From Rugalucina vietnamica (taxonomy: Eukaryota; Mollusca; Bivalvia; Lucinida; Lucinidae): 64,000 bases of DNA. How positions within the stretch are numbered: position 1 is the stretch's first letter; every line of letters starts with the position of its first letter. This document shows positions 14,454-56,749 of the stretch, piece by piece. A model generated the notes under the pieces. It saw only the letters and a program-made list of their open reading frames with translations. It was not told the origin of the DNA and did no database searches. A program made the translations under genes and the position numbers. The stretch is taken from assembly GCA_964017185.1 (NCBI GenBank), contig OZ024875.1, forward strand, positions 66,025,043 through 66,089,042, read 5' to 3'.

Positions 14454-14620
14454 GATGCTTGAAAGTTGCAAAATCTGTACTTCTCCTTGGCTCCATGTTG
14501 CCAAATCTAAAGGGTCATTGACGAGACTTTAACAGTCGAAACCGCGGTATGGCCCATCCCCTTTCTCATTAATGTGTTCACTGCTCTTAAGGGATCTCAG
14601 TTGTATTTTTATTTGCTATT
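14454..14620 (+). repeat. hammerhead repeat family, first tandem unit
   Basis: First of two direct copies that run from CTTGAAAGTTGCAAA through a hammerhead motif to TGTTCACTGCT and a T-rich end. Shared sequence is about 165 bp, and equivalent points are 285-290 bp apart. The part after the ribozyme cleavage site, beginning TGGCCCATCCC, recurs at 44.8 and 56.3 kb. Confidence 0.85.
14512..14555 (+). ncRNA. hammerhead ribozyme motif, type I, one core change
   Basis: Self-cleaving RNA fold read by eye. Helix I: GGGTCA (14512-14517) with TGGCCC (14550-14555), including one U-G pair. The first core strand TTGACGA (14518-14524) differs from CTGANGA only at C3. Helix II: GACT, loop TTAAC, AGTC (14525-14537). 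GAAA at 14538-14541. Helix III: ACC, loop GC, GGT (14541-14548). The predicted cleavage site follows A14549 (triplet GTA). The C3-to-T change should impair catalysis because C3 pairs with G8 in the active fold. Confidence 0.8.
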
Positions 14621-14741
14621 TGAGATCAGCGAGGATATTTTGAGAAATCAGAAATCTATTATTGGTTAAGATTCATTTTTAACCACAGTTTAACATATTT
14701 GGTCCCATTTAGTTAATATTAGTCTTTGTATCGACTACCTA

Positions 14742-14897
14742 CTTGAAAGTTGCAAATTTCTGTAATTCTCTTTGGCTCCATGTTGCCAAATCTAAAATGT
14801 CACTGACGAGACTTTAATAGTCGAAACTGTGGTATGACCCATCCCCTTTCTAATTAATGTGTTCACTGCTATTAAAGGAGTTCAGTTTTATTTTTTT
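14742..14897 (+). repeat. hammerhead repeat family, second tandem unit
   Basis: Second direct copy of the 14454-14620 unit, with scattered substitutions and a complete hammerhead motif. It ends in a T-rich run. Confidence 0.85.
14799..14838 (+). ncRNA. hammerhead ribozyme motif, type I, intact core
   Basis: Core strand CTGACGA (14803-14809) fits the CTGANGA consensus exactly. Helix II: GACT, loop TTAAT, AGTC (14810-14822), perfect. GAAA at 14823-14826. Helix III: ACT, loop GT, GGT (14826-14833), with one U-G pair. Cleavage is predicted after A14834 (triplet GTA). Helix I: GTCA (14799-14802) with TGAC (14835-14838), four pairs. All conserved catalytic bases are present. The cleavage site is exactly 285 bp from that of the upstream motif, so a double-cleaved transcript would release a 285-nt RNA. 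Confidence 0.85.
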
Positions 14898-14899
14898 TT

Positions 14900-16008
14900 T
14901 ATTTCTTGGTTTAACTTGTGTACTTATGATTAATAATGCTTAGCATCAATTCCTATTGCATGTATTTAAATCATTGCTAATTTTGAATGCGGAGTTTTTC
15001 TTTATTTAAATGTAATTACGATTTATTCCTTATATAATAAATCAAACAGCTTGAATGATTGTCTTCAGCTGCAGAGGTTTAAGGAAAACTGAACTGTGGA
15101 TGCCGTGATAAATTAGATTCTAGTTATCAATGAGAAAAATTGTCTTTGGGGATTTTCGATTTAGTATTAAAATAGTGAACAGATCACTAATAAATAATTA
15201 TTTCTTAAACTGTCGTTAAAGCGTTTTGGTTTCAATGCGTCTTTATAAATAGTTCGTCATTACCTATAAAGATATTGCTATTTGCATTGCATGTTTTAGT
15301 TCTATATACACAGCAGAAAGCAGGCGATGAAAGATCTTGACTAGACCTAGATCCTACCTTCTTACACAACCGTAACGTTACATATAAATCTGATGAAACT
15401 CCGGGTAGCCAACAATGTAGAAAATCATATATAGGCCTAAAAGGATTATAATCTACACTTATTGAGCAGACAAAAGTGGAAACAAGTAGCCCCAAAGGCA
15501 ATGATCGCTCACCTGAGAGACCAATATATTTTACAATTTAGTAATTAAGAAAAAAAGGTGAAAGTTTGGTTTTACGACATTTAAAAGTGGCTTAATCAAC
15601 TGAAAATTGATTGATCATGTCTAAATTCAAACAAATACAAATCGGTTAGGCTAGCTAAACCTACAATATATGGATCGGTCTGACTGAATTTCAAACACAT
15701 ATGGAACTTTATATTATTGTTGTCGTCATTACCCACAAGAATCCGGAAGTTCAGTCATAAGTTTTAATTATTAGTTTAGACGTTCAAGTTCATGTTACTC
15801 CTCAGTATGTGATGGGATCTGTACAAATTTCGAAATGAAATATTTTGAGCTTTAATGGTCGTCCTTGTTTCCTATAAAAATGGAAAAGATTCGATCAAAA
15901 ATGAAGCAGCTAGAATGTTTACATCATTCTCCCTATTAAAAGTATAAGGACAGCTAACTCCGTATCCTATGTCATATCATGCTGCATAACAAACTCGATT
16001 AATTGATT
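14900..16008. other. non-coding, no gene seen
   Basis: AT-rich with no recognisable gene; the minus frame at 15232-15501 shows no family features. Confidence 0.4.
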
Positions 16009-19329: not shown

Positions 19330-21420
19330 TTTTTTTCAATTCTCGTCACCATGGCAACGGGAACTAGTATTTTGCCTAAAAATCGCTAAATTCTACTCTA
19401 AAAATGGTATAATTCAAAATAATATTTTATGAATGTGATAAATGTTAGGTAGAATGGAACAATTCGAATAGAAACACTTAACATAGCTTAAAGCTTTTAA
19501 GCCAAAACAACATTGATTTTATTCAGCTTGGCGTTGCCATGACAACGCATATTATACCACTAAGTCAAAAAATATGAAAAAGGCATTTTTGGCTGTTTTC
19601 AGATCAATTTATCGCAACTTCAGTAGACTGATATTGATATGCAGTAACACTTAATCTATAAAGCAATTCTTATATTACATGTTTCCACAATAAAACGCTT
19701 TGCCTTTTCATATACACGGTTACCATAGCTACAAATCGAACACCACTGAAATGAAAAATCTAAAATTTACATTTTGGAGGGTTTTCAGGTAAGCTTATAT
19801 CAGCTTCTAATCACTGGTGGATATATTTTGTAGCAGTGTACCAAGAAAGGAACTTATGATTTATCATATACAATAATAGAAAAAATAGCTTGGTAATTTA
19901 CCTGGTTGCCATGGCGACAACTATAATGCTACAAAGGAAAATTATCTAAAATATTGATTTTTGGGTTGTTTTCACACCAAGATATTGACACTTCAGTAGA
20001 CTGATGTAAACATGATATTGCCGTTTAATTGTAAAGTAAGTATTATATTACAAGTTTCATCAACAGAACCCTTTACCTTTTCATATACACGGTTGCCATA
20101 GCAACAGATCGAACACCACTTGAGGCAAAAATGTAAAATTTACAATTTGGAGGGTTTTCAGTTAAGTTTATGTCAACTTCTAATCACTGATGGATTTATT
20201 TTGTAGCATTGTACAAAGAAAGCAACTATTGGTTTATCATATTCAATAACAAAAAAGACAGCTTGGTCACTTACCTGGTTGCCATGGCGACATTTATAAT
20301 GTTACAAGGGACAAATATCAAAAATATTGATTTTGTTTTGTTGTTTTCACACCAAATTATTGCCACTTCAGTAGACTTTTTTGAACATGATATTGATTTA
20401 GAATTATAAAGTAAGTACTATATTACAAGTACAACACTTCGTAAATTAATACGTGTGGTTGCCATAGCAACAAACCGAACACAACTGGAGGAAAAAAACG
20501 GCTAAAATTTACATTTTGGGGGTTTACAGGTAAGTTTATATCAGTTTCTTTTCACTTGTGGATTTGTTCTGTAACATTGAACCAAGAAAGCAAATAGTGA
20601 TTTATCATATCCGATAATAAAAATGACAACTTGGTCACTTACCAGGTTGCCATGGCGACAACTAAAATGCTACAGATGAAAATATCTAAAATAAAGAATT
20701 TTTTGGTTGTTTTCGCACCAAATTATTGCGACTTCAGTAGACTGATGTTAACATGATATTGAATATTAATTATAAAGTAAGTATTTTATTATAAGTTTAT
20801 ATAATAAAACGCTTTGCAAGTTAAAATGCATGGTTGCTATAGCAACAAGCTGAACACCACTGGAGAAATATATTTAAACGTGACATTTTATGGAGGGTGG
20901 AGGAGCCTTCTGATCATTTATATCGGCATCTGGACAATTATCGGTATTTATTTTGTCACATTGCATCAGTAAACCAACAATTGTTTTATCATGCTCGATG
21001 ATGAAAAGACAGTATGATCACTTACCTTGTAACCATGACAACAACAAAGTCACACCTGAAGATGAATGTCCAAAATTGGAATTTTCTGCTGTTTTGAGAC
21101 TCAATTCTTGTAAATTCTGTAGACAATTTTTTTATGAAAATGTATAATGATCTAGAAGTATCAAATACATCATTTGTTCAAAAGATTTAACCATTTGAAA
21201 ATTCAAATACTGGTTACCATGACAACAACAATGTCATTCTTTGACAGCCGCCCAAAATTGGCATTTTCTGCTGTTTTGAAACTCATCTATTGCAAATTCA
21301 GTAGACTGATATTGAAATTAAGTTTTGTCATGTAAAGTGTCTCTGATATTACGTGTCCGGAAAAATAAAACCCTTTGCAAACTCAAATACCTGGTTGACA
21401 TGACAACAACAGAAACACCT
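19330..21420. repeat. satellite of about 186-bp units with X-box palindromes
   Basis: Twelve units, each with one copy of the palindrome GTTGCCATGGCAAC or a close variant, at about 19345, 19533, 19719, 19905, 20092, 20278, 20458, 20646, 20833, 21029, 21213 and 21394. Spacing is 180-196 bp. In the middle the variants alternate: GTTGCCATGGCGAC (19905, 20278, 20646) and GTTGCCATAGCAAC or similar (19719, 20092, 20458, 20833). The higher-order unit is thus a dimer of about 370 bp with shared blocks such as CTTCAGTAGACTGATGT and GGAGGGTTTTCAG. The outer units are more diverged. Confidence 0.9.
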
Positions 21421-24635: not shown

Positions 24636-24745
24636 ATATGAAAACATACATAAGGCGCCAACAGCACAAACCCTTTTAAACACCAAGACATGAACATTAA
24701 GAACCACCAAAGAAATATCGCCTTGGAACGATCAGTTATATAAAA
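24636..24745 (-). mobile_element. PLE-like tail fragment, internal
   Basis: Internal tail piece (AAATATGAAAACATACATAA to ACGATCAGTTATATAAAAT) lacking the 3' terminus. It is followed immediately by the minisatellite, which may have replaced its end. Confidence 0.75.
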
Positions 24746-24747
24746 TT

Positions 24748-25285
24748 TCGACAGCACATCATTTGGTAGTAGCTATTTCGAATGTACTTCTTTTGGTAGA
24801 AGCTACTTTGAATGCGCTTCATTTGGTGGTAGCTAGTTAGAATGCACTTCATTTGGTAGAAGCTACCTTGAATGCGCTTCCTTTGGTGGTATCTATTTCG
24901 AATGCACTTCAATGGTAGTAGCTATTTTGAATACACTTCATTTGGTAGTAGCTATTTCGAATGCACTTCTTTTGGTAGAAGCTACTTTTAATGCGTTTCA
25001 TTTGGTGGTAGCTATTTCAAATGCACTTCATTTGGTAGTAGCTATTTCGAATACACTTCATTTGGTAGTAGCTATTACGAATGCACTTCATTTGGTATAG
25101 CTATTTCTAATGCACTTCATTTGTTGGTAAAAAGGTACAAGTAGGCAAAGATCAGGAAAAGGCGCAATCAGAAAAAGATTCCCACTCCAAAAACCGAGGT
25201 GGGAAAATAGTAGTAGCTATTTCGAATGCACTTCATTTGGTAGTAGTTATTTCGAATCCACTTCATTTTGTAGTAGCTATACTAA
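24748..25285. repeat. 30-bp minisatellite array
   Basis: About 15 copies of a 30-bp unit (TTTGGTAGTAGCTATTTCGA ATGCACTTCA), with variants GTAGAAGCTACTT and TGGTGGTAGCT. Because 30 is a multiple of 3, one frame stays open and reads a 10-residue repeat (VVAISNALHL). It is interrupted by a 75-bp PLE-like tail at 25134-25208. Confidence 0.9.
25134..25208 (-). mobile_element. PLE-like tail, minimal 75-bp insertion
   Basis: Only the last 75 bp of the family (GGTACAAGTAGGCAAAGATC to CCGAGGTGGGAAAA), inserted within a minisatellite unit. It is nearly identical to the young copies, so it is recent. It shows the fixed 3' end and extreme 5' truncation. Confidence 0.9.
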
Positions 25286-25892: not shown

Positions 25893-25980
25893 CCAGACTG
25901 TTGCGCAATATGGCCCATACTGCATCCCTTTGAACGTTTTCACTGCTTCTAAAGTATCCAGCTTTTATATTTTATTTCTC
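25893..25980 (+). repeat. hammerhead family 3' fragment
   Basis: CGCAATATGGCCCAT ... TTTGAACGTTTTCACTGCTT ... TTATATTTTATT is collinear with the sequence downstream of the ribozyme at 44807. The ribozyme core is not preserved here. Confidence 0.65.
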
Positions 25981-26682: not shown

Positions 26683-28209
26683 ATAGTGGTTTATACACTT
26701 TGGTCGTGCGACGCCTTATCCTATCTCCTTGATAAAATTTATATTAAATTTGGGACCAAGTTATACAGACAAATAGTTGGAATTCCGATGGGTACAAATT
26801 GCGCACCTCTCGTAGCTGATTTATTTTTATACTGCTACGAAAGAGATTTCATGGATTCTCTTAACCATGATAATCAAGCTGATGTTATCGAGGCTTTTGA
26901 TTCCACATCTAGGTAACTCGATGACCTTCTGAACATTGACAACCCTTAGTTTGAAGGTATGGTCAATCAAATTTATCCACCTGAACTTCAGTTGAACAAA
27001 GCCAATATCTCAGATACCGAAGCCCCCTTTTTAGATCTACATCTTTCTGTTGCAAATGGATTTGTTTCTTCTAAAATTTATGATAAGCGCGGTGACTTTG
27101 ATTTTGATATAGTAAATTTTCCTTTTTTGGATGGTGACGTTCCTCGTCGTGCTTCTTATGGTGTATACATTTCGCAACTTATTAGGTTTGCTAGAGTCTG
27201 CAATCATGTTACAGACTTCAACGCTCGAAATAAATGTTTAACGGCAAAACATCTCCAACAGGGCTATCGGTGTCATAAACTTCGAAAAACCTTTTCTTAA
27301 TTTTATCGTAGACACTATGAATTGATTTCCAAATATAATGTTGGGTTAAAGACGCTTTTAAGTTAGGGACTTTCGGAACCTGAATTTTATGGTGACTTGG
27401 TTCACAAATTTAAGAAACTTAAAGGAATTAATGACTTTTCTTTTCACTTCAGAAAAATCATAACACGATACAGACGTATAGGTTATAACTTGAATGTTAT
27501 GTGACAGTCTGCATGCTTAGTTTTTAACCCAATCATGGTGGATAACTATGCTGCCTTCTTTAATTGCACGCCGGTGGGTCGGGCGTCAGACTCTATGATG
27601 GCCCCGACTTAAAGCTATTCATTTTAGTTGGTTGGGGCCGGAGCTTCTTGTCTGTTGCTTGGCCCACCGGGGTCCAACTTTTGCTCCGGAGTTAGTAGGT
27701 TATTCGGCGCCATTAGTTCCATCGTCGGGCAGCTTACTCAATCTGTGAGTCCTAGTTTTTGATTCATCAGGATGTTTATCGTGATTTATTTGTTCGTTCT
27801 TGGTGATTTATCGACTAGTTAGAGATTCACCACGAGGACCGAAGAACTAACTAAATGTTATGAACCACTGCAGAAGCTGAGGGTGAGGTTAGGTACCTGT
27901 AAAACCGGTTTAAGCCCGCCAGTAACTTTGTGTTACTGATCGTTCCAAGTCGATACTTCTGTGGTGGTTCTTTTTGTTTTATGTCTTGGTGTTTAATTTT
28001 TTTTTTTTTTGTGCTGTTGGCGCCTTATGTATGTTTTCATATTTTTAGTTAAGTTAAGGTAACTGAGTGGCCACCTATTGGGAAAATAGCTGCTCATTCG
28101 GCTTACGATATGTTTCATGGTATAAGTACCTGATTGTTAGTTTGGTTTTTCCCACCTCGGTTTCTTTTTCTGATTGCGCCTTTTCCTGATCTTTGCCTAC
28201 TGGTACCTT
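26683..28209 (+). mobile_element. PLE-like copy with broken RT
   Basis: Plus-strand copy from the RT block YTLWSC to the 3' terminus (GCCTACTGGTACCTT). The tail 27610-28209 is close to the consensus. Confidence 0.88.
26686..27612 (+). pseudogene. PLE-type RT pseudogene with several stops
   Basis: It has GIPMGTNCAPLVADLFLYCY intact, but the Tyr of YLDD is a stop codon (near 26915). Further stops occur at about 26948 (NPYFEG block), after KTFS (27298), in LLSEGL (27362) and in NVMRQ (27500). Homology otherwise runs to ASDSMMAPT, so this is a dead copy. Confidence 0.87.
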
Positions 28210-36282: not shown

Positions 36283-36547
36283 GTCTTTTATCAGACGTAT
36301 AGGTTATAACTTGAATGTAATGCGACAGTCTGCATGCTTAGTTTTCAACCCAGTCATGGTTGATAACTATGTTGCCTTCTTTAATTGCACGCCGGTGGGT
36401 CGGGCGTCAGACTTTATGATGGCCCCGACTTAAAGCTATTCATTTTAGTCGGTTGGGGCCGGAGCTTCTTGTCTGTTGCTTGGCCCACCGGGTCCAACTG
36501 GTGTTTTTCTTTTGCTGCAGAAGCTGAGGGTGAGGTTAGGTACCTGT
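36283..36547 (+). mobile_element. PLE-like copy fragment with internal deletion
   Basis: The RT C-terminal end (IGYNLNVMRQSACLVFNP...) and first part of the tail, then a jump from TTTTTCTTTTGCT directly to GCAGAAGCTGAGGG, ending at GGTACCTGTGAA. It abuts the 3' terminus of the next, opposite-strand copy. Confidence 0.82.
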
Positions 36548-38302: not shown

Positions 38303-38576
38303 CGCTTCTGAATGTTTCGACGGTTATTTGACCGTTATACATCGGAGCCAGCCGATATTGACAGAGCCATATTGACGGAGCGATTGCTTATTTTTACTCC
38401 ATTATCGTTATTTCCATTTTTATTTTAGTTCTTCAGAAGTGGAGAAAAATCAGACAATAAAATTATACATTTGGACAATCACAACACTTAGATAATAAAA
38501 AATCCTGAGATCTTTTAACGGCAGCGAAAGTATTAAAGAGAAAAAAAGACATACCGCGGTTACGGTTATTTAAAAA

Positions 38577-39106
38577 GGCATAAGTAGGCAATAATCAGGA
38601 AAAGCGCAATCAGAAATTCCCACTCCAAAAAGCGAGGTGGGAAAAACTAAATTTACAATAAGGTACTTATACTAAGAAAACATATCGAAAGCCGTGTGAG
38701 CAGCTATTTCCCAATTGACGGCCACTTAGTCAATATGAAAACGTATATAAGGTTTAAAAAGTACAAATATTCGACTCCAAAACATAAAATAAATGAACCA
38801 CACTAGAAGTATCGCCTTGCAACGACCAGTAACGATCAGCAATATGAAATTACTGGGGAGGGCTTAAACCGGTTTTACAGGCGCTTAACCTCACCATCAT
38901 CTACTGCAGTGGTTCACAACATTACATATGTGTTGAGTCAAGTTAAGTGGTGAATCTCTAACTGGTCAATGAATCATCAACGACAAACAAAGAAATCATG
39001 ATAACCACCCTGACGAGGACTTAACAGATTCAGTAAGCTGCCCGACGATGGAGATCCATGGGCACCGAATAACTTACTGAAATCCGGAGCAAAAGAAAAC
39101 ACCAAG
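38577..39106 (-). mobile_element. diverged PLE-like tail, long
   Basis: Minus-strand copy of nearly the full tail, from AAGTAGGCAATAATCAGGAA to AATCCGGAGCAAAAGAAAAC. It is of the same diverged subfamily as 2885-3230 (shares ATTCGACTCCAAAACA). Confidence 0.8.
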
Positions 39107-40384
39107 TAAGCCTCTTCAGTGACCTTATAAATTTGACACGGGGTTTGCAATTTTCAACAAGATAGTCTCGATACAAAGACTACATGTATTTTTAAACAAT
39201 AATAACATGCTTGCAGTCATCACATAAGTTGACCTTTGTTTACCTTTTGATTTAGACATAACCATGTACCATTTGGAATTCGCAACTAACCAAAAATAAT
39301 ACTTCAAACAATCAGTAGAGACATGGTCTGGTTTGCGTTGTAGTGAGGTAGTAAGTTATTGTCAATGTTCGCAGGTGACATGCAACATGATAAACACTGT
39401 GTGTTTATTGTATCATAAAGGAATGGTTCTAGCACCAGAAAGTATTCTTTTGTTTCAACTTTTAATATTTGGTTTATCATATCTTTGTTTTCTCTTTTCG
39501 GTAATTCTAACAATTATGTGTGCTTCACCTTAAATTATGTAGTTTCTAACTATCGGTATCAGTAGAACCCTCACATTTAACAAATCTGTGCATAAATATT
39601 TAAATAGCATTAAAATGACAACTTGTGTTTTAGCCAATCAACATATGGAATGACCAATAGTTGGTATCTTAAATTGTTACAAAACAATTGCATAACTACG
39701 GTAACCTAGCCACTACATTGTGCTAATAATTCCAGCAAAGATAGTTTAGCCGGTCTCAATGAAATATACATGTATATCCTTAACATGAATATTGCATTGT
39801 CATTTGTTTTGAAACGTGAGCGTTTTTGTCATCTGTGAGATTAAGAAACGGTGAGAGAATGCATAAATAAAATATATATTGAAACTCAAAACATTTTTTT
39901 CTTAAGTTCTAGAATTTCAATTTATTATCTTGCAGAAATTGAAATATATTGTTTTGTGTTTTTGTTGTAATGAACAGCTGATACTTTATTTAAATATACT
40001 GTACCTCTGCCATCCAATTGCAAGATTGCCTTAAACGACTCGGTTATGTCCCATTGCATCTTCATTCATCTGATACTATCTGCCGTTCGAAGGTCGGGTT
40101 GGCTAATCACATGATTCATAGCGTCTATAAATAGCACCGCTATTCAATAGTATGTATCCGATAAGTACAATCTCTGACATATTCTTTGACTAAGTAGTTA
40201 GAGCATTGGATTTTCGAATCCCATCTAACTATGCATCATCTCTTAGTTACGAATTTTCATATTCGTAGGATGGCTGTTGGAATCTTAAATTTTTATTGTA
40301 TAAAATCTAATGCCTTTCAGTTTTACTTTGGACCTTTCCTATGCGTATTCATTAACTACAAATATCCAGTTTTGAGTAGCCACC
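39107..40384. other. non-coding, no gene seen
   Basis: AT-rich; includes the apparent source (39281-39348) of the filler at 37914-37981. Confidence 0.45.
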
Positions 40385-42806: not shown

Positions 42807-44766
42807 ATAAACAAGAAATAAGAAATCATATTAAGAAAATACTTAACATAGATACCAATATCGTATATTCGAACAAATCATTCATTTAAATTAAAATGAT
42901 CTTTTTTAATAGAGGGGATATAAGAGTGAATACTTGTACTGAGAAAATATATTTTACCGGCCTTTTGCTAGTGACCCAATGCCTGTTTAAATTCTGTGTG
43001 TCATTAGTATCATTCACTTACCGCAAACCTCAGTCGTGCTCATGCTGGCGATGTGGATTAATCTAACAAACTTGCAAGAAAATTAACAAGCCACTTAACC
43101 CCATGAAATTTCATTCGTGAAAAAATCTATGGCCTATTCGCTCACAAGTTATGTGCGAATAATAGTATACGAAATTCGATTAAGTGCGTTATTGTCGACC
43201 TTGAAGAAGAAAAAAAAAACAGCATTACTAAACATTTACTCGCAAAACCGTTAGCATGCATATGTGTTTTGCTTTTAGTTCGTAGGTTAAAATTAGAGCA
43301 TGTCACGTCATGAACCGAATCAGGAAACATTAAAGAGGGCAATGACATCTAACAATGGATGTAGAATATTAATTGGTATGTTATTCAGTATGATATTTGT
43401 AATAAAGTGGAATGCCATTTTAGAAATCGTTTTTTTATTTCTTATTGTTTACATAATTACTCTTATCGCAGTGTCGTTTAATCCCGAATTTAATTGCATA
43501 TACACATAAGTGAAACAGCAGACATGTCAAACCGTCATCTGATTTGTGCTGAACAATCAAATATCTGCGTCCAAACAATAGAAGGATGGTTATATTCTTC
43601 TCGTCACCGTGGTTAAATTGGATTCACATCGTGCAAAATGCTAGTATTCACAATCGTAAAATGAGAACAAATACTTTTTATCCCACCTTCAAGTTTACAT
43701 TGGCCTTGGTCGTTTGAAATGCATTCAAAGGTATTCATAATTTCCTAATGGGAAAGAGTTTCATTTCCATACCTGATTCTCATTAGAACCGAAGTGTATA
43801 ATCAGATGTATCTTGTTTAAGATGCGACACGTCGCATACAGGTTTATATTGACCCATACATTACTTTCATGTAAACTACTGTAAAAATTCAAAATTTTCA
43901 GTAGCTATTTAAGGCACTCAAACAATTGCATGTACTTCCTTCCATCCGCGTAAGCTAACTTACAATTTACTATGATTCTAAGTGCTTAAATGCATGACCC
44001 TTGTTGGTCTCTGTAGTTAAGCACACTGGTTTTGTCGTGTACATGTATGTGCTATTCAAAGACATGTTAACCATTTTCCAGCAACACGATATGACGATGG
44101 CAAATGCAGCAAGGGAATAAAGTCAGGACCAAATAAGTTTAGTTAGTATTGTACACACTTGGAAGCATTAAGCAAAGGTTGTATGCTAGTTGTATTATCG
44201 GAAAACTTCAACTTGTGATATGTCTTATCAACCGTTCTTGTGCTTGATTTTGCTCTGCTTCAGCAAATTTCAGAGATTGTCATTTAAAGTTGGTGGAATG
44301 TAAATGTATGTAAATGTCTGGAAAACAAGCAACGAAAGACATCTAAGGCATCTCCGTATCATTTGTTGGTGTGTTGGTTGTTTAGTTTTTAGTTAAACAG
44401 TTTTTTTTTTCACATTCTTTATCAAGACCTTTATTGTTGGTTCCCGTTAGAAACGACATCTTAACTGTAATACCTGTCATTTTATATGGCTATGAATGCA
44501 AATGGCTAATATGTGAGGTGAAAATAGCCCGTTTCACAATGCTTCTGAAGCAATAGGTTTTGGGACCCGAGGCGCCTTACCAAAGGCGCATAAATTGAAC
44601 AAGTGGCTAACTGGCTCGATGTTCAATATTATATGAGGTCAGCACTAGGACAAGCATGTCGTGTTGGTGATAAATGCGCACCTTGGCCTAATAAAGGCAA
44701 ACGCCAATCGAAGGGAACGTGTAAAGGGAAAACACAAGTCAGCTTCACCAAAACCAATTTCATAAA
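42807..44766. other. non-coding, no gene seen
   Basis: No gene recognised. The last 200 bp may be the upstream part of the hammerhead-family copy at 44767. Confidence 0.4.
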
Positions 44767-44812
44767 GGGTCACTGATGAAGGTTCATTACCCGAAATTGT
44801 ACAATATGGCCC
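44767..44812 (+). ncRNA. hammerhead ribozyme motif, type I
   Basis: Helix I: GGGTCA (44767-44772) with TGGCCC (44807-44812), six pairs including one U-G. Core CTGATGA (44773-44779) is intact. Helix II: GGT, loop TCATT, ACC (44781-44791), with an A-C mismatch at the position that is normally a G-C pair (44780/44792). GAAA at 44793-44796. Helix III: ATTG, loop TA, CAAT (44796-44805), four perfect pairs. Cleavage is predicted after A44806 (triplet ATA). All core bases fit; the A-C mismatch may reduce activity. Confidence 0.8.
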
Positions 44813-44880
44813 ACCTTCTCTCTTTGAATGTTTTTACTGCTTCCAAAGGATCTAACAATTATATTTTATTCACTTGAAAA
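44807..44880 (+). repeat. hammerhead family, 3' part
   Basis: TGGCCCACCTTCTC, TTTGAATGTTTTTACTGCTT and TTATATTTTATT are collinear with the segments after the ribozymes at 14.5 and 14.8 kb and with fragments at 25.3, 25.9, 47.6 and 48.8 kb. Confidence 0.75.
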
Positions 44881-45426
44881 TACATTCGATACGCCAATTT
44901 GCCCGGAGTAATGTTACATTCTGAGAAGTAAAGTAATTTGTAGATCATGTCGCAAAAACATTATTTTATGGTGACCAATTATGTAGTGCTTGTTTTTCTA
45001 GCGGCTATAATTGTCACGGTTTGTTTCTTTTCTCTGGAAAACAGCTAATTTTATGCCTCCAAATGGTGTCATTTTATAGCATTAGGTGTATTTATAGGAA
45101 GTAACTGGCTATGAGTGAATTAAAGTAGCTATTACGTGTATTTGAGTCAGGAGGTGGCGATTATCTGCGCTCCATGCCTTTTCCTGTTTGAGATATCTGT
45201 GTAGAAGTAAAACCGATTGGTTTATTCCCACCATGATGATAACAATTGAAATAGTATGGGCTAATGGAAAAATTGACAGCTTTCAAATCATACAGTCAGC
45301 CTTTAAATCTGTGTCATTCGGAAAAACTATTCCCCAATGCTGGCTTTTAATAACTTTGTAAGAAACTACATGAACTTGTTCACAGCTGATATTGAACTGG
45401 TTGCTGAACTTTTCCGAAAAGTGTCA
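44881..45426. other. non-coding, no gene seen
   Basis: No feature recognised. Confidence 0.4.
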
Positions 45427-46200
45427 CAACATGTACGTCTGTTTAGTCATGCAATGGTTCAAACAGTATGCCAGTCTGTTGTAGATTAAAAGGAATTATT
45501 GCATAAATTCCCGTGACACACTATATGAACAGCGATATATTAATGAAAAGAATGTCATGTATTAATAAATATAGCAATTCTCGTGTGCGCGTGCTGTTAA
45601 TACATGGCTTTGACTTATCCAGTTCCGGGACCTTTTTGATAACAATGTATTACTGCGCGTTGCACGTGTTGTCTGCTCACACTAAAATAGAATATGGACG
45701 CCAACATTCAATTTTGGCATAAAGTTGACGAAACAGGTACGTTCACTAAAGTTGAAATCGTAATTCCATTCAAAATCTCAGCAAATTTAATGACACAATA
45801 CATTACGGTATCGCAACATGTACGTCTGTTTAGTCATGCAATGGTTCAAACAGTATGCCAGTCTGTTGTAGATTAAAAGGAATTATTGCATAAATTCCCG
45901 TGACACACTATATGAACAGCGATATATTAATGAAAAGAATGTCATGTATTAATAAATATAGCAATTCTCGTGTGCGCGTGCTGTTAATACATGGCTTTGA
46001 CTTATCCAGTTCCGGGACCTTTTTGATAACAATGTATTACTGCGCGTTGCACGTGTTGTCTGCTCACACTAAAATAGAATATGGACGCCAACATTCAATT
46101 TTGGCATAAAGTTGACGAAACAGGTACGTTCACTAAAGTTGAAATCGTAATTCCATTCAAAATCTCAGCAAATTTAATGACACAATACATTACGGTATCG
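45427..46200. repeat. 387-bp perfect-looking tandem duplication
   Basis: Units 45427-45813 and 45814-46200. I see no difference between them by eye, and the frames inside are identical in both. The frames (69 and 60-72 codons) have no recognisable family. It is a very recent duplication or an assembly artefact. Confidence 0.92.
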
Positions 46201-47589: not shown

Positions 47590-47700
47590 TAAGTAAAATA
47601 TAAAGATTTTATCGTTTGGAAGCAGTAAAACATTCAAAGGTCGATAGTATGGACTGTATTGTGCAATTTCGGGTAATGAACCATAATCAGTACCCCTTTT
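47590..47700 (-). repeat. hammerhead family, decayed minus-strand copy
   Basis: The minus strand reads core-like CTGATTA (47684-47690, G8 and A9 region altered), helix II GGT TCATT ACC, GAAA (47667-47670), and helix III ATTG CA CAAT. The downstream sequence CTTTGAATGTTTTACTGCTT is shared with the other copies. Helix I pairs poorly. The ribozyme is recognisable but probably dead. Confidence 0.72.
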
Positions 47701-47817
47701 AAAACCGGCAGCGAAAGCCAGACTATTGTACAGTAATTTCGAAAATTTACACGAGAAGTCTACATCAAAGACACATTTATAAACGGGGTCCAACAATTTA
47801 AACATTGCTTAGAAAGG

Positions 47818-50192: not shown

Positions 50193-51074
50193 GATATGTT
50201 TTCAGATTAGATTTGGGACCAAGTTATACAGACAAATTGTTGGAATTCCGATGGGTACAAATTGCGCACCTCTCGTAGCTGATTTATTTTTATACTGCTA
50301 CGAAAGAGATTTCATGGATTCTCTTAACCATGATAATCAAGCTGATGTTATCGAGGCTTTTAATTCCACATCTAGGTACCTCGATGACCTTTTGAACATT
50401 GACAACCCTTATTTTGAAGGTATGGTCAATCAAATTTATCCACATGAACTTCAGTTGAACAAAGCTAATATCTCAGATACCGAAGCCCTCTTTTTAGATC
50501 TACATCTTTCTGTTGCAAATGGATTTGTTTCTTCTAAAATTTATGATAAGCGCGATGACTTTGATTTTGATATAGTAAAGTTTTCTTTTTTGGATGGTGA
50601 CGTTCCTCGTCGTGCTTCTTATGGTGTATACATTTCGCAACTTATTAGGTTTGCTAGAGTCTGCAATCATGTTACAGACTTCAACGCTCGAAATAAATGT
50701 TTAACGGCAAAACTTTTCCAACAGGGCTATCGGTATCATAAATTTCGAAAAACCTTTTCTAAATTTTATCGTAGACACTATGAATTGATTTCCAAATATA
50801 ATGTTGGGTTAAAGATGCTTTTAAGTAAGGGCCTTTCGGAACCTCAATTTTAAGGTGACTTGGTTTACAAATTTAAGAAACTTAAATGAATAAATGATTT
50901 TTCTTTTCAGTTCAGAAAAATCATAACACGTTACAGACGTATAGGTTATAACTTGAATGTTATGCGACAGTTTGCATGCTTAGTTTTTAACCCAATCATG
51001 GTTGATAACTATGCTGCCTTCTTTAATTGCACGCCGGTGGGTCGGGCGTCAGACTCTATGATGGCCCCGACTTA
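50193..51074 (+). pseudogene. PLE-type RT fragment with one early stop
   Basis: Open for 200 codons from GTNCAPLVADLF through YLDDLLNIDN and FLDLHLS to GLSEPQF, where a Tyr codon is a stop (about 50853). Homology resumes to ASDSMMAPT with another stop in the KLKGIND block. The catalytic YLDD is present; the TYDFS block is missing. Confidence 0.86.
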
Positions 51075-51610
51075 AAGCTATTCATATTAGTTGGTTGGGG
51101 CCGGAGCTTCTTGTCTGTTGCTTGGCCCATCGGGGTCCAACTGGTGTTTTTCTTTTGCTCCGGAGTTAGTAGGTTATTCGGCGCCCAGGGATCTCCATCG
51201 TCGGGCATCTAACTCAATCTGTGAGTCCTGGTTTTTGATTCATCAGGATGTTTATCATGATTTATTTGTTTGTTCTTGATGATTCATTGACTAGTTAGAG
51301 ATTCACCACGAGGACCGAAAAACTAACTAAATGTTACGAACCACTGCAGAAGCTGAGGGTGAGGTTAGGTACCTGTAAAACCGGTTTAAGCCCGCAAGTA
51401 ACTTTGTGTTACTGATCGTTCCAAGTCGATACTTCTGTGGTGGTTCTTTTTGTTTTATGTTTTGGTGTTTAAAATGTTTTGTGCTGTTGGCGCCTTATGT
51501 ATGTTTTCATATTTTTAGTTAAGTTAAGGTAACTGAGTGGCCATCTATTGGGAAAATAGCTGCTCATTCGGCTTACGATATGTTTCATGGTATAAGTACC
51601 TAATTGTTAG
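50193..51610 (+). mobile_element. PLE-like copy, left part, split by insertion
   Basis: The plus-strand copy begins at the RT block RFGTKLYRQIVGIPMGT. The tail runs to CCTAATTGTTAG at 51610, and the remaining roughly 90 bp lie at 54182-54274. TTAG occurs at both junctions. Confidence 0.87.
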
Positions 51611-54378: not shown

Positions 54379-56110
54379 CTTGGATACTGAGCTAGTATCA
54401 TATTGATGTGCCTTGTGTAATTGATGTTTTTTCTTCAAGAAGCCTCTTAATTTTGTCATCATTTTCATCAAACCAGTCTTGATGTTTGCGAGATGGACGT
54501 CCTAAAGTAGAAGCAGCTGAAGAAGCTAAGGTCAGGTTAGATTAACTGCTACTGTAACATGTAATGTTGTCATGCGGTGTGGATGGGGCTGTTAGCCGTG
54601 GACGGCAACCCATCTAGGAGTTTGCTAGTTCTCTACACAATAATCTAGCTGGGCAGGGAGAAATAATTAGTTTTGGTCGATGTCTATAAACAAAACCCAA
54701 GAAAGGAATCTAAGAAAGGGTAGATGGAGCTCTTCAGCTGTGGCCAGCAATTCATCTAGGAAAAGGTTGTTCCAAAATAAAACCTGTGTGTCTGGATATG
54801 CCTAGTCCAGATATGCAAAGACTGTTTTGGTAGACGGAGCGGAAGAAATCACCTCATTTTACGGTTAAGAAAGCGATACAGCAACATGTTGTGAAACATA
54901 AGGCACTAAAGATGTTACGGACAACCACTGCATCCACACCCAACTCCAGACGTCTTGACCTGTGTCATGCCTCTGGCCACAATTTGGTGAGGACGAGTGA
55001 GTGAGGTCGACGCTGCGCACCTCTTCCTCACTATAATCCAATTTCATAGCGCACGTCTTATCTTATTTCACATCTTATTTCTCAACACACAAGCACTTGC
55101 ATACACAACAATGTCATCACACATGCACCCACAAACCTATAAAAGTCACGTGAAAATGGGCAAGTGGCAAAGCAGCAGGTGCAGGACACACTTGGAGCTG
55201 TTGTTTGCAGACCTGTACGCAGGCGGCTTAGTTCTATACAGCTGTATGACCGTTTTCCGTGAGGAGAAGCGGTAAGCGGGATTCGGCATATCTGCAAAGC
55301 AACTATTTGGTGTAAGGTTCAATGTAATTCAATTTCTGCAATGAAGTTCTTAACAGTTTTCTTTTATTAAGTTATGTACTTCTTTCAGAATGTTTTTCAT
55401 TCAAGGTCATCGTTTCGTTTATTTTTCATGTCTAATGAGGTTAAAAACACCCTATTGGTTATCACAAGCCTCTGGTCTGGTATAATTGTTTTCAACGCAT
55501 ACTTTTTTCTATTTTTTTTTAAATGCGACTAAAACACATAGATAAAGAATGAAGCAAACAAACATTGGCTTCATTAAACACACGTATACAAATGTGTTTA
55601 AATGAAAGTTCACAAAGTTCGTTGCAAAAGTAGAAAAGCAGATTATTAAGTTCTTTATTGCCATGACAGATATTTTATGAAATAATCAATTTATTAAAAA
55701 ATACATTTTATCATGCAAAAATGTCCTCGCATATCAGCATTATGTACGATAATCATTAAACATATATTATCGTGTAATTCTGCGACATCTTCGAAGGCAA
55801 GAATCGTAAAAAGAATGCAAAATGGTGAGCAATGCGGAAGGGAAATCATATCGCATCGTCATATTTGAGAGAAACCTTTCCCTCGACATTCATATACTTC
55901 AACATTCATTTGAAATAGAGGCATTTCCTTTTGATCGTGAATATAATCGTAATGAGAAAAAAAAAATCATAGACAAGTGTTTCTAAAAAAAAACTCTACC
56001 TGGCGTTTTCAGCTGAAAAATAATCTCTCAGTTTTATTTTTATATTCTGTATATTGCATTGGCGTGTTTTTGAAATGAAACTCTTGAGAACCGCAATTGC
56101 AAGTAAGGAT
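54379..56110. other. non-coding, no gene seen
   Basis: No gene recognised. Two phrases with CATCTAGGA (about 54612 and 54752) suggest an old internal duplication. GC-richer sequence lies at 54880-55020. Confidence 0.4.
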
Positions 56111-56461
56111 TTCTGTTGACGGCTGGGCGAGTTGTCTAATTTCGCGATAAGCAGTACAAGGGTTATCGAAGAAATGGCCATGGGTACGCTCATGTTATTT
56201 TAGCCAGAATTAGGCTGAAAAACCAACTATGATGTCAACTTTAGATTCCTCTAGATTTCCGTTTAAAATATAAATATGTTTAATTATATGATTCATCCAC
56301 GATACGAGTTTGTTATATTGACTTAACGCGGTATGGCCCATCCCTTTTCTCATTAATATGCTCACTGCTCTTAAAGGATCTCAGTTTTATTTTTATTAAC
56401 ACACTATGCTCCTTATAACTGATTAATTGTCAGCGTGTCTGGAGAGAATTTTTTGCAATAT
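56111..56461. repeat. hammerhead-related tandem unit 1
   Basis: 351-bp unit (TTCTGTTGACGGCTGGGCGA ...) followed by a second copy. Near its 3' third it contains ATTGAC-TTAAC-GCGGTATGGCCCATCCC, which lines up with the 14.5-kb hammerhead if helix II's outer parts and the GAAA are deleted. The downstream sequence CTCATTAATATGCTCACTGC matches that family. Confidence 0.82.
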
Positions 56462-56749
56462 TTCTGTTGTTGGCTGGGCGAGTTGTCTAATTTTGCGATA
56501 AGCAGTCCAAGGGTTATCGAAGAAATGAGTACTCTCATGATTTTTTTAACCAGAATTAGGCTGAAAAACCAACTATGATGCCAACTTTAGATTCCTCTAG
56601 ATTTCAATTTAAAATATGAATATGTTTATTTATATGATATTCATCCTCGATACGAGTTTGTTATATGGACTTAACGCAGTATGGCCCATCCCTTTTCTCA
56701 TTAATATCCTCACTGTTCTTAAAGGATCTCAGTTTTACTTTTATTAACA
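56462..56749. repeat. hammerhead-related tandem unit 2, left part
   Basis: Second copy of the 351-bp unit, interrupted by a LINE at TTATTAACA and resumed at 58111. Confidence 0.82.

Follow-up and report, generated by a model that had tools for sequence, protein, structure and literature searches.

A decayed tandem array with predicted hammerheads in Rugalucina vietnamica and its abundant retrozyme family with a 377-bp unit

Two hammerhead motifs lie 285 bp apart in a tandem repeat of the bivalve Rugalucina vietnamica. Do they mark a retrozyme, and by which route would such an element be copied into DNA? We analysed the surrounding 64 kb (hereafter the window), which span positions 66025043-66089042 of contig OZ024875.1, and related loci of the genome, which comprises 1.09 Gb in 47 contigs, 17 of them summing to ~1.088 Gb. 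A first-pass annotation had described two type I hammerheads, the second with all conserved bases and the first with C3 changed to T. It had proposed that a transcript cut at both would give a 285-nt RNA fit to become a circle. Both motifs are present as described, with the two core states and with cleavage sites 285 bp apart, at 14549/14550 and 14834/14835.

Hammerheads and repeat unit of the window array

The array has the following parts. Unit positions are numbered from the cleavage site, and R1 is a model built from the retrozyme family, with both window copies among its training rows.

14459-14900, + strand: retrozyme copy; runs from unit position 285 through two hammerheads to unit position 66; 92.5% identity with the family consensus
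14512-14555, + strand: hammerhead 1, C3 replaced by T; cleavage site expected at 14549/14550; probably inactive; R1 match at 14502-14563, 90.8 bits
14550-14620, + strand: unit 1 tail (unit positions 1 to ~72); a junction at ~14620 to unit ~161 replaces ~92 bp
14799-14838, + strand: hammerhead 2; cleavage site 14834/14835; R1 match at 14787-14848, 80.8 bits; RF00163 17.7 bits
14835-14900, + strand: terminal tail, unit 1-66, which stops at the 3′ end usual for the family

Hammerhead 1 reads GGGTCA (14512-14517), TTGACGA, GACT-TTAAC-AGTC, GAA, ACCGCGGT and A14549, followed by TGGCCC. Hammerhead 2 reads GTCA (14799-14802), CTGACGA, GACT-TTAAT-AGTC, GAA, ACTGTGGT and A14834, followed by TGAC; it keeps all core bases, and its helix I is down to 4 bp. 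A strict type I descriptor recognized one perfect motif in the window (unit 2 only); 60 Markov-simulated sequences of 64 kb gave no match. At other loci it detected perfect hammerheads in tandem, six in L009 and three in L012. The CTGANGA core was matched by 51 of 54 family copies. C3G abolishes hammerhead cleavage, as quoted in the excerpts of PMC11167929, and C3U is presumably as damaging. Since unit 1 lacks C3, double cleavage at the window locus is not expected.

The tandem unit was 377 bp long in four of the five loci run through TRF (L009, L010, L012 and L014), with up to 5.8 copies, and the TRF base composition of L009 gave a G + C content of 36%. The family shows several features listed for metazoan non-LTR retrozymes in the excerpts of PMC7229834: tandem repeats of ~150–450 bp, G + C content below 50%, a type I hammerhead with a conserved core and many dispersed copies. 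The 15-mer GAAACCGCGGTATGG, from the 3′ half of the ribozyme, had 7,622 exact copies in the genome, tandem units included, and its reversed control had one. A DNA search of the genome gave at least 88 retrozyme matches, with the best 40 of 5,722 candidates scored, and the listed matches were spread over all 17 large contigs. A second subfamily was ~85% identical. We sampled 20 loci, then 19 further ones, and added 20 through a tail-only query. The 39 loci come from the top-scoring members of the family, found with tail-containing queries, so tail-less elements are maybe under-sampled; the query for the 20 added loci held only the tail of the retrozyme family, which biases this set toward tails.

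Because ~92 bp are missing after unit ~72, the spacing in the window is 285 and not 377 bp. Other stretches are missing in L031, L036 and L039, beginning near unit 65–82; these gaps may be separate deletions or two insertions placed end to end. With ~92 bp lost and C3 absent from the first ribozyme, no 285-nt circle is expected from the window copy, and we discarded this part of the annotation. The retrozyme reading holds for the family, with its type I hammerhead, low-GC 377-bp tandem unit and thousands of copies. At the window locus the proposal fails in its details, since 285 nt is not the circle size and unit 1 lacks C3. As far as the sequence tells, the window array is a decayed copy of an abundant family of animal retrozymes with a 377-bp unit.

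The window held further remnants, some from a second hammerhead subfamily.

25907-25977, + strand: tail remnant of a retrozyme relative; 25933-25977 at 80%, with 0/1000 shuffles as good
44757-44870, + strand: second-subfamily hammerhead with tail, single copy; R1 41.1 bits, E 1.1e-9
47643-47706, − strand: decayed second-subfamily hammerhead, helix III ATTGCACAAT; R1 14.9 bits, E 0.087, a weak match
56334-56397, + strand: tail-only copy, unit 1-65, 93.8% identity
56682-56742, + strand: another copy of the tail alone, owed to a local 348-bp duplication

The copy at 44757-44870 has a CTGATGA core, the helix III ATTGTACAAT (a 10-nt palindrome), a predicted cleavage site at 44806/44807 and a tail (44807-44870) that is 74% identical to the family tail, with 0/1000 shuffles aligning as well. 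An R1 match at 45250-45311 (E 0.69) looked spurious when read. The 348-bp tandem at 56109-56749 was considered as a second retrozyme and rejected: among 2,469 candidates, of which 40 were scored, its body had no other match. We read it as an insertion of the tail alone, later duplicated. Other tandem arrays in the window are at 19586-20865 (373-bp units) and 24745-25123 (30-bp units). The pair of tandem copies at 45427-46200, each 387 bp long, had a scored identity of 100% and is probably recent.

Fold of the hammerhead and its palindromic helix III

No hammerhead reached the Rfam gathering score on the 64-kb window, and none was found at E ≤ 10 on 1.6 kb around the motifs or on 20 fetched loci. 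On stretches of ~100 nt of L012 (a typical copy) and window unit 2, Hammerhead_1 (RF00163) was the best of 4227 Rfam families. Its scores were 19.7 bits (E 0.0099) and 17.7 bits (E 0.042), respectively, both below the gathering score of 34 that marks membership. A whole-genome RF00163 search gave no match anywhere, but its 14 controls were also silent, which makes it uninformative. The motif is hammerhead-like by anatomy and no formal Rfam member. Having only sub-threshold matches is, formally, the outcome that the first-pass annotation had named as counting against its proposal, and taken alone the Rfam test would leave the hammerhead case open. The family evidence from covariation across subfamilies outweighs these scores.

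In the young family (25 copies, 24 distinct), 95.5% of the cells pair, and covariation was not above shuffles. For 56 distinct rows, made of the young family, the second subfamily and diverged window copies, 91.7% of the cells paired. Double-change cells numbered 25, against 7.3 in shuffles (0/500 shuffles as high). The rows had been aligned with the model, which is biased towards its own structure, and 15 of the 25 cells represent a single A-U/G-C exchange in helix II that may stem from few events. Between the subfamilies, the helices stay paired although both of their strands have changed, and this covariation supports the predicted hammerhead fold. Core positions were almost unchanged in 21 per-locus consensus rows. 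Over the same rows, the 44-nt hammerhead stretch ranked only 78th lowest in variation among 377 such stretches, so conservation alone is weak evidence.

Single-strand folds were matched by shuffles in 36/200 cases for L012, 106/200 for window unit 1, 65/200 for unit 2 and 16/200 for L019. The minimum-energy fold kept helices I and II, and not III, in window unit 1, and helix II alone in unit 2. This unremarkable folding and the lack of an Rfam hammerhead at gathering score are what one would expect if the motifs were chance or fossil features of an ordinary interspersed repeat with no ribozyme function. We regard this explanation as very improbable: the simulated windows had no descriptor match, helices II and III show covariation, and a distinct subfamily retains core and helices with another helix III.

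Helix III of the family, ACCGCGGU, is a perfect palindrome, and AUUGUACAAU, in the second, diverged hammerhead of the window, is another. Helix III is self-complementary (G-U allowed) in 44 of 57 copies of A2. The Rfam model, when aligned to L012, draws it as four pairs without a loop. In the energy model, the monomer hammerhead with a CGCG loop had −8.6 kcal/mol, the one without helix III −8.7 and an alternative fold −12.5; the two-strand form had −28.9, which, coming from two strands, allows no direct comparison with the monomer. A helix III hairpin with a 2-nt loop, as drawn in the first-pass annotation, is not credible; a palindromic helix that forms dimers is the better reading. This palindrome points to dimeric cleavage, and the ribozymes probably act as dimers through helix III. 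We only infer this, because the monomer energies are unfavourable to helix III and the folds are not clearly above shuffles. Dimer cleavage is reported for amphibian retrozymes (PMC7229834, excerpts). The weak helix III and palindromic loop resemble the satellite-type hammerheads of newt and axolotl, whose dimers cleave better (same source). Unlike in these, helix III ACCGCGGU consists of two pairs plus CGCG, or of an 8-bp duplex in the putative dimer, and the unit is 377 bp compared with 330–350 bp there.

Ends of the insertions and a possible copying route

We re-scanned the 39 loci and the window with the whole unit and roughly 0.6–1.3 kb of flank, so the common 3′ end is no artefact of the end of the query. 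Of the 46 elements >100 bp, 42 ended at unit 58–78 and the remaining four at unit 161, 171, 211 and 357. With the 20 further loci, and excluding elements <130 bp from the locus edge, 63 of 72 elements ≥60 bp ended at unit 58–78, 45 of them at 65–66. After removal of the duplicated L059, the counts were 62 of 71 at unit 58–78 and 51 at 64–67. The tail includes ...CACTGCTCTTAAAGGATCT...ATTT. The 5′ starts run over the whole unit and are not quite uniform (KS p 0.04, 56 elements). A shared 3′ end combined with many different 5′ ends is the pattern expected from target-primed reverse transcription. Because this 3′ end lies inside the unit and arrays pass the hammerhead several times, initiation would have taken place within a circular or multimeric template. 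The common 3′ end region, ~65 nt past the predicted cleavage site, is new anatomy. Among the retrozyme papers listed in a literature search, no title or abstract opening mentions 5′-truncated animal retrozymes with a fixed 3′ end.

A first test of the flanks gave three of 21 arrays below p 0.05. In a second test, which left out L059 and the elements starting at unit 1, the two flanks of an element resembled each other more than mismatched flanks did (51 elements; 40 × 40 nt, p 9e-5; p < 0.03 at each of the eight window sizes used). More distant flanking sequence showed a slight resemblance as well (p 0.06). Long direct repeats next to the junctions were seen only in L031 (~39 nt), L036 (~27 nt) and L011 (~25 nt). 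In metazoan non-LTR retrozymes, TSDs exceed 4 bp where they occur, LTRs, PBS and PPT are absent, and the self-cleaving elements are expressed as unit-length RNA in linear and circular form (PMC7229834, excerpts). Penelope insertions have an optional 31-bp tail and TSDs of 8–10 bp or none (PMC3846280, excerpts), so that the weak TSDs of the retrozyme are compatible with such an enzyme.

Several features recall the retrozymes of the mussel Mytilus galloprovincialis (350–390 bp; PMC7229834): the type I hammerhead, the 377-bp unit size, the low G + C content, the thousands of tandem copies and the co-existing Penelope-type elements. The likeness is one of features and not of sequence relatedness, and the fixed 3′ end with 5′ truncation is undescribed for the mussel type in the excerpts of that paper. 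As in the Penelope-like element PAc of Anolis (PMC11167929, excerpts), insertions terminate on their 3′ side at set internal positions shortly past the hammerhead, ~85–92 nt in PAc (calculated from +26 and +111–118) versus ~65 nt here. Unlike PAc, the 377-bp unit is too short to encode such an enzyme, with reverse transcriptase and GIY-YIG endonuclease. We regard the family as a metazoan retrozyme, an abundant non-coding mobile element with a predicted self-cutting hammerhead.

We think it likely that the family consists of non-LTR animal retrozymes with a 377-nt unit that spread through ribozyme cleavage, circles and internally initiated reverse transcription. The type I hammerheads, probably joined into dimers by their palindromic helix III, would cut transcripts of tandem copies, and the 377-nt monomers would be ligated into circles. 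A Penelope-like or similar reverse transcriptase would nick chromosomal DNA and start synthesis within the unit, ~65 nt past the cleavage site on its 3′ side (...AUUU^G). The enzyme would travel round the circle for less than one turn or for as many as several, with no set stop, and its products would be head-to-tail arrays that share their 3′ end but differ in their 5′ ends. In this scheme we infer the cleavage, the circles and the identity of the enzyme. In vitro, copying of a Penelope-like element was shown to initiate internally, 3′ of its hammerhead (PMC11167929, excerpts), and copying of a primed circle by a LINE- or Penelope-type enzyme has been proposed for the return of retrozymes to DNA (PMC7229834, excerpts).

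The same element may instead have used a linear multimeric transcript as template, with hammerhead cleavage incidental or later, an alternative to which we give a lesser but real chance. A linear multimer with internal initiation yields the same ends as a circle, and in PAc hammerhead mutants leave in vitro insertion unaffected (PMC11167929, excerpts). Against this, circles are the main RNA form of mussel retrozymes (PMC7229834, excerpts); the present evidence does not separate the two templates. We hold it rather unlikely that array length arose mainly by unequal DNA exchange after insertion of a single unit, as in a satellite. L058 and L059, ~136 kb apart on the same chromosome and with both flanks in common, have ~2.9 and ~4.8 units, and this difference indicates that exchange after insertion also shapes arrays; likewise, the nearest neighbour lay within the same array for just 18 of 34 units. 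However, the mean identity of units was 0.961 within arrays (40 pairs, 12 arrays) and 0.899 between them, reaching 0.976–0.992 in L009–L013, and exchange alone does not account for scattered arrays that have their 3′ end in common but differ in their 5′ ends. Internally initiated copying of a circle is thus our preferred reading.

Co-resident retroelements

The genome has GIY-YIG ORFs, which we take to be Penelope-like from the GIY-YIG match and general knowledge of such elements. One family has 964-aa open frames every ~3.9 kb and carries a hammerhead with the palindromic helix III AGCGCGCU; this element, with its 3.9-kb tandem unit, was seen at loci L093, L094 and L107–L114. In the 5′ regions of GIY-YIG elements, placed by estimate so that misses are possible, a hammerhead was found in two of 14 (the 964-aa family) and none in 12. 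Insertions of the 964-aa family end 48 nt past the cleavage site at four of eight loci and, at the other four, at a second site ~158 nt past it by alignment (somewhat less given the TA run), all at (TA)n microsatellites. The GIY-YIG tail did not match the retrozyme tail (677/1000 shuffles as good). With its (TA)n insertions and non-matching tail, the GIY-YIG family is like the retrozyme in anatomy but is not its partner, and no autonomous element sharing the retrozyme tail was found among the examined genome elements.

Five SECIS_1 matches were detected in the window (36408-36475 +, 51050-51117 +, 27587-27654 +, 1566-1499 − and 48460-48393 −). They belong to an abundant element with 32 matching 3′ UTR pieces in the 64 kb, 22 of which end at UTR 640–649 and then continue into differing sequence. 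One match overlaps the end of an ORF at 1541-2929 (−), in which a YLDD motif was read from the DNA and a Pfam search gave no match. Selenoprotein Penelope-like elements are called Naiads. One piece of the SECIS element interrupts a further retrozyme copy:

38492-39135, − strand: hammerhead split in loop II; SECIS 3′ UTR at 39104-38563; tail remnant at 38543-38492; R1 17.5 bits, E 0.014 (5′ half)

In total, six retrozymes (fetched loci and window) hold a 3′ UTR fragment of this element. It lies in loop II in L024 (736-1053), L071 (903-1175), the window copy and probably L014, and elsewhere in L015 and L074. In L024, L071 and the window copy the 5′ half of the hammerhead is upstream of the UTR, which starts at 324, 386 and 93, respectively; these differing starts make the three insertions look independent. 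Exact joins of the 3′ end of the SECIS element to GAAACCGCGGTATGG occur at 31 genome places. In 29 of these the junction span is 36–38 nt (28–48 allowed), a nearly constant site in hammerhead loop II; the figure is a raw count and not an enrichment over chance. We rejected the possibility that hammerhead and tail form the 3′ end of the SECIS element itself, given that 22 of 32 pieces run into differing sequence and that retrozyme sequence flanks the fragment on both sides in five of six cases (in L014 one side was seen). The loop II junctions may also be one amplified chimera. Tentatively, and with more doubt than confidence, we suggest that hammerhead DNA is a preferred landing site for the SECIS element, which disables it, in a retrozyme that is copied internally ~65 nt past the ribozyme round a circular RNA. 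If true, the ribozyme-bearing parasite and the co-resident retroelement would stand in a relation that resembles an arms race.

For retrozymes as a group, the set distance of the 3′ end past the hammerhead, together with 5′ truncation, would make the proposed copying of circles testable from genome sequence alone, and the usual 3′ end supplies a start site for an assay. The common stop just past the ribozyme hints at the route by which retrozymes are copied into DNA.
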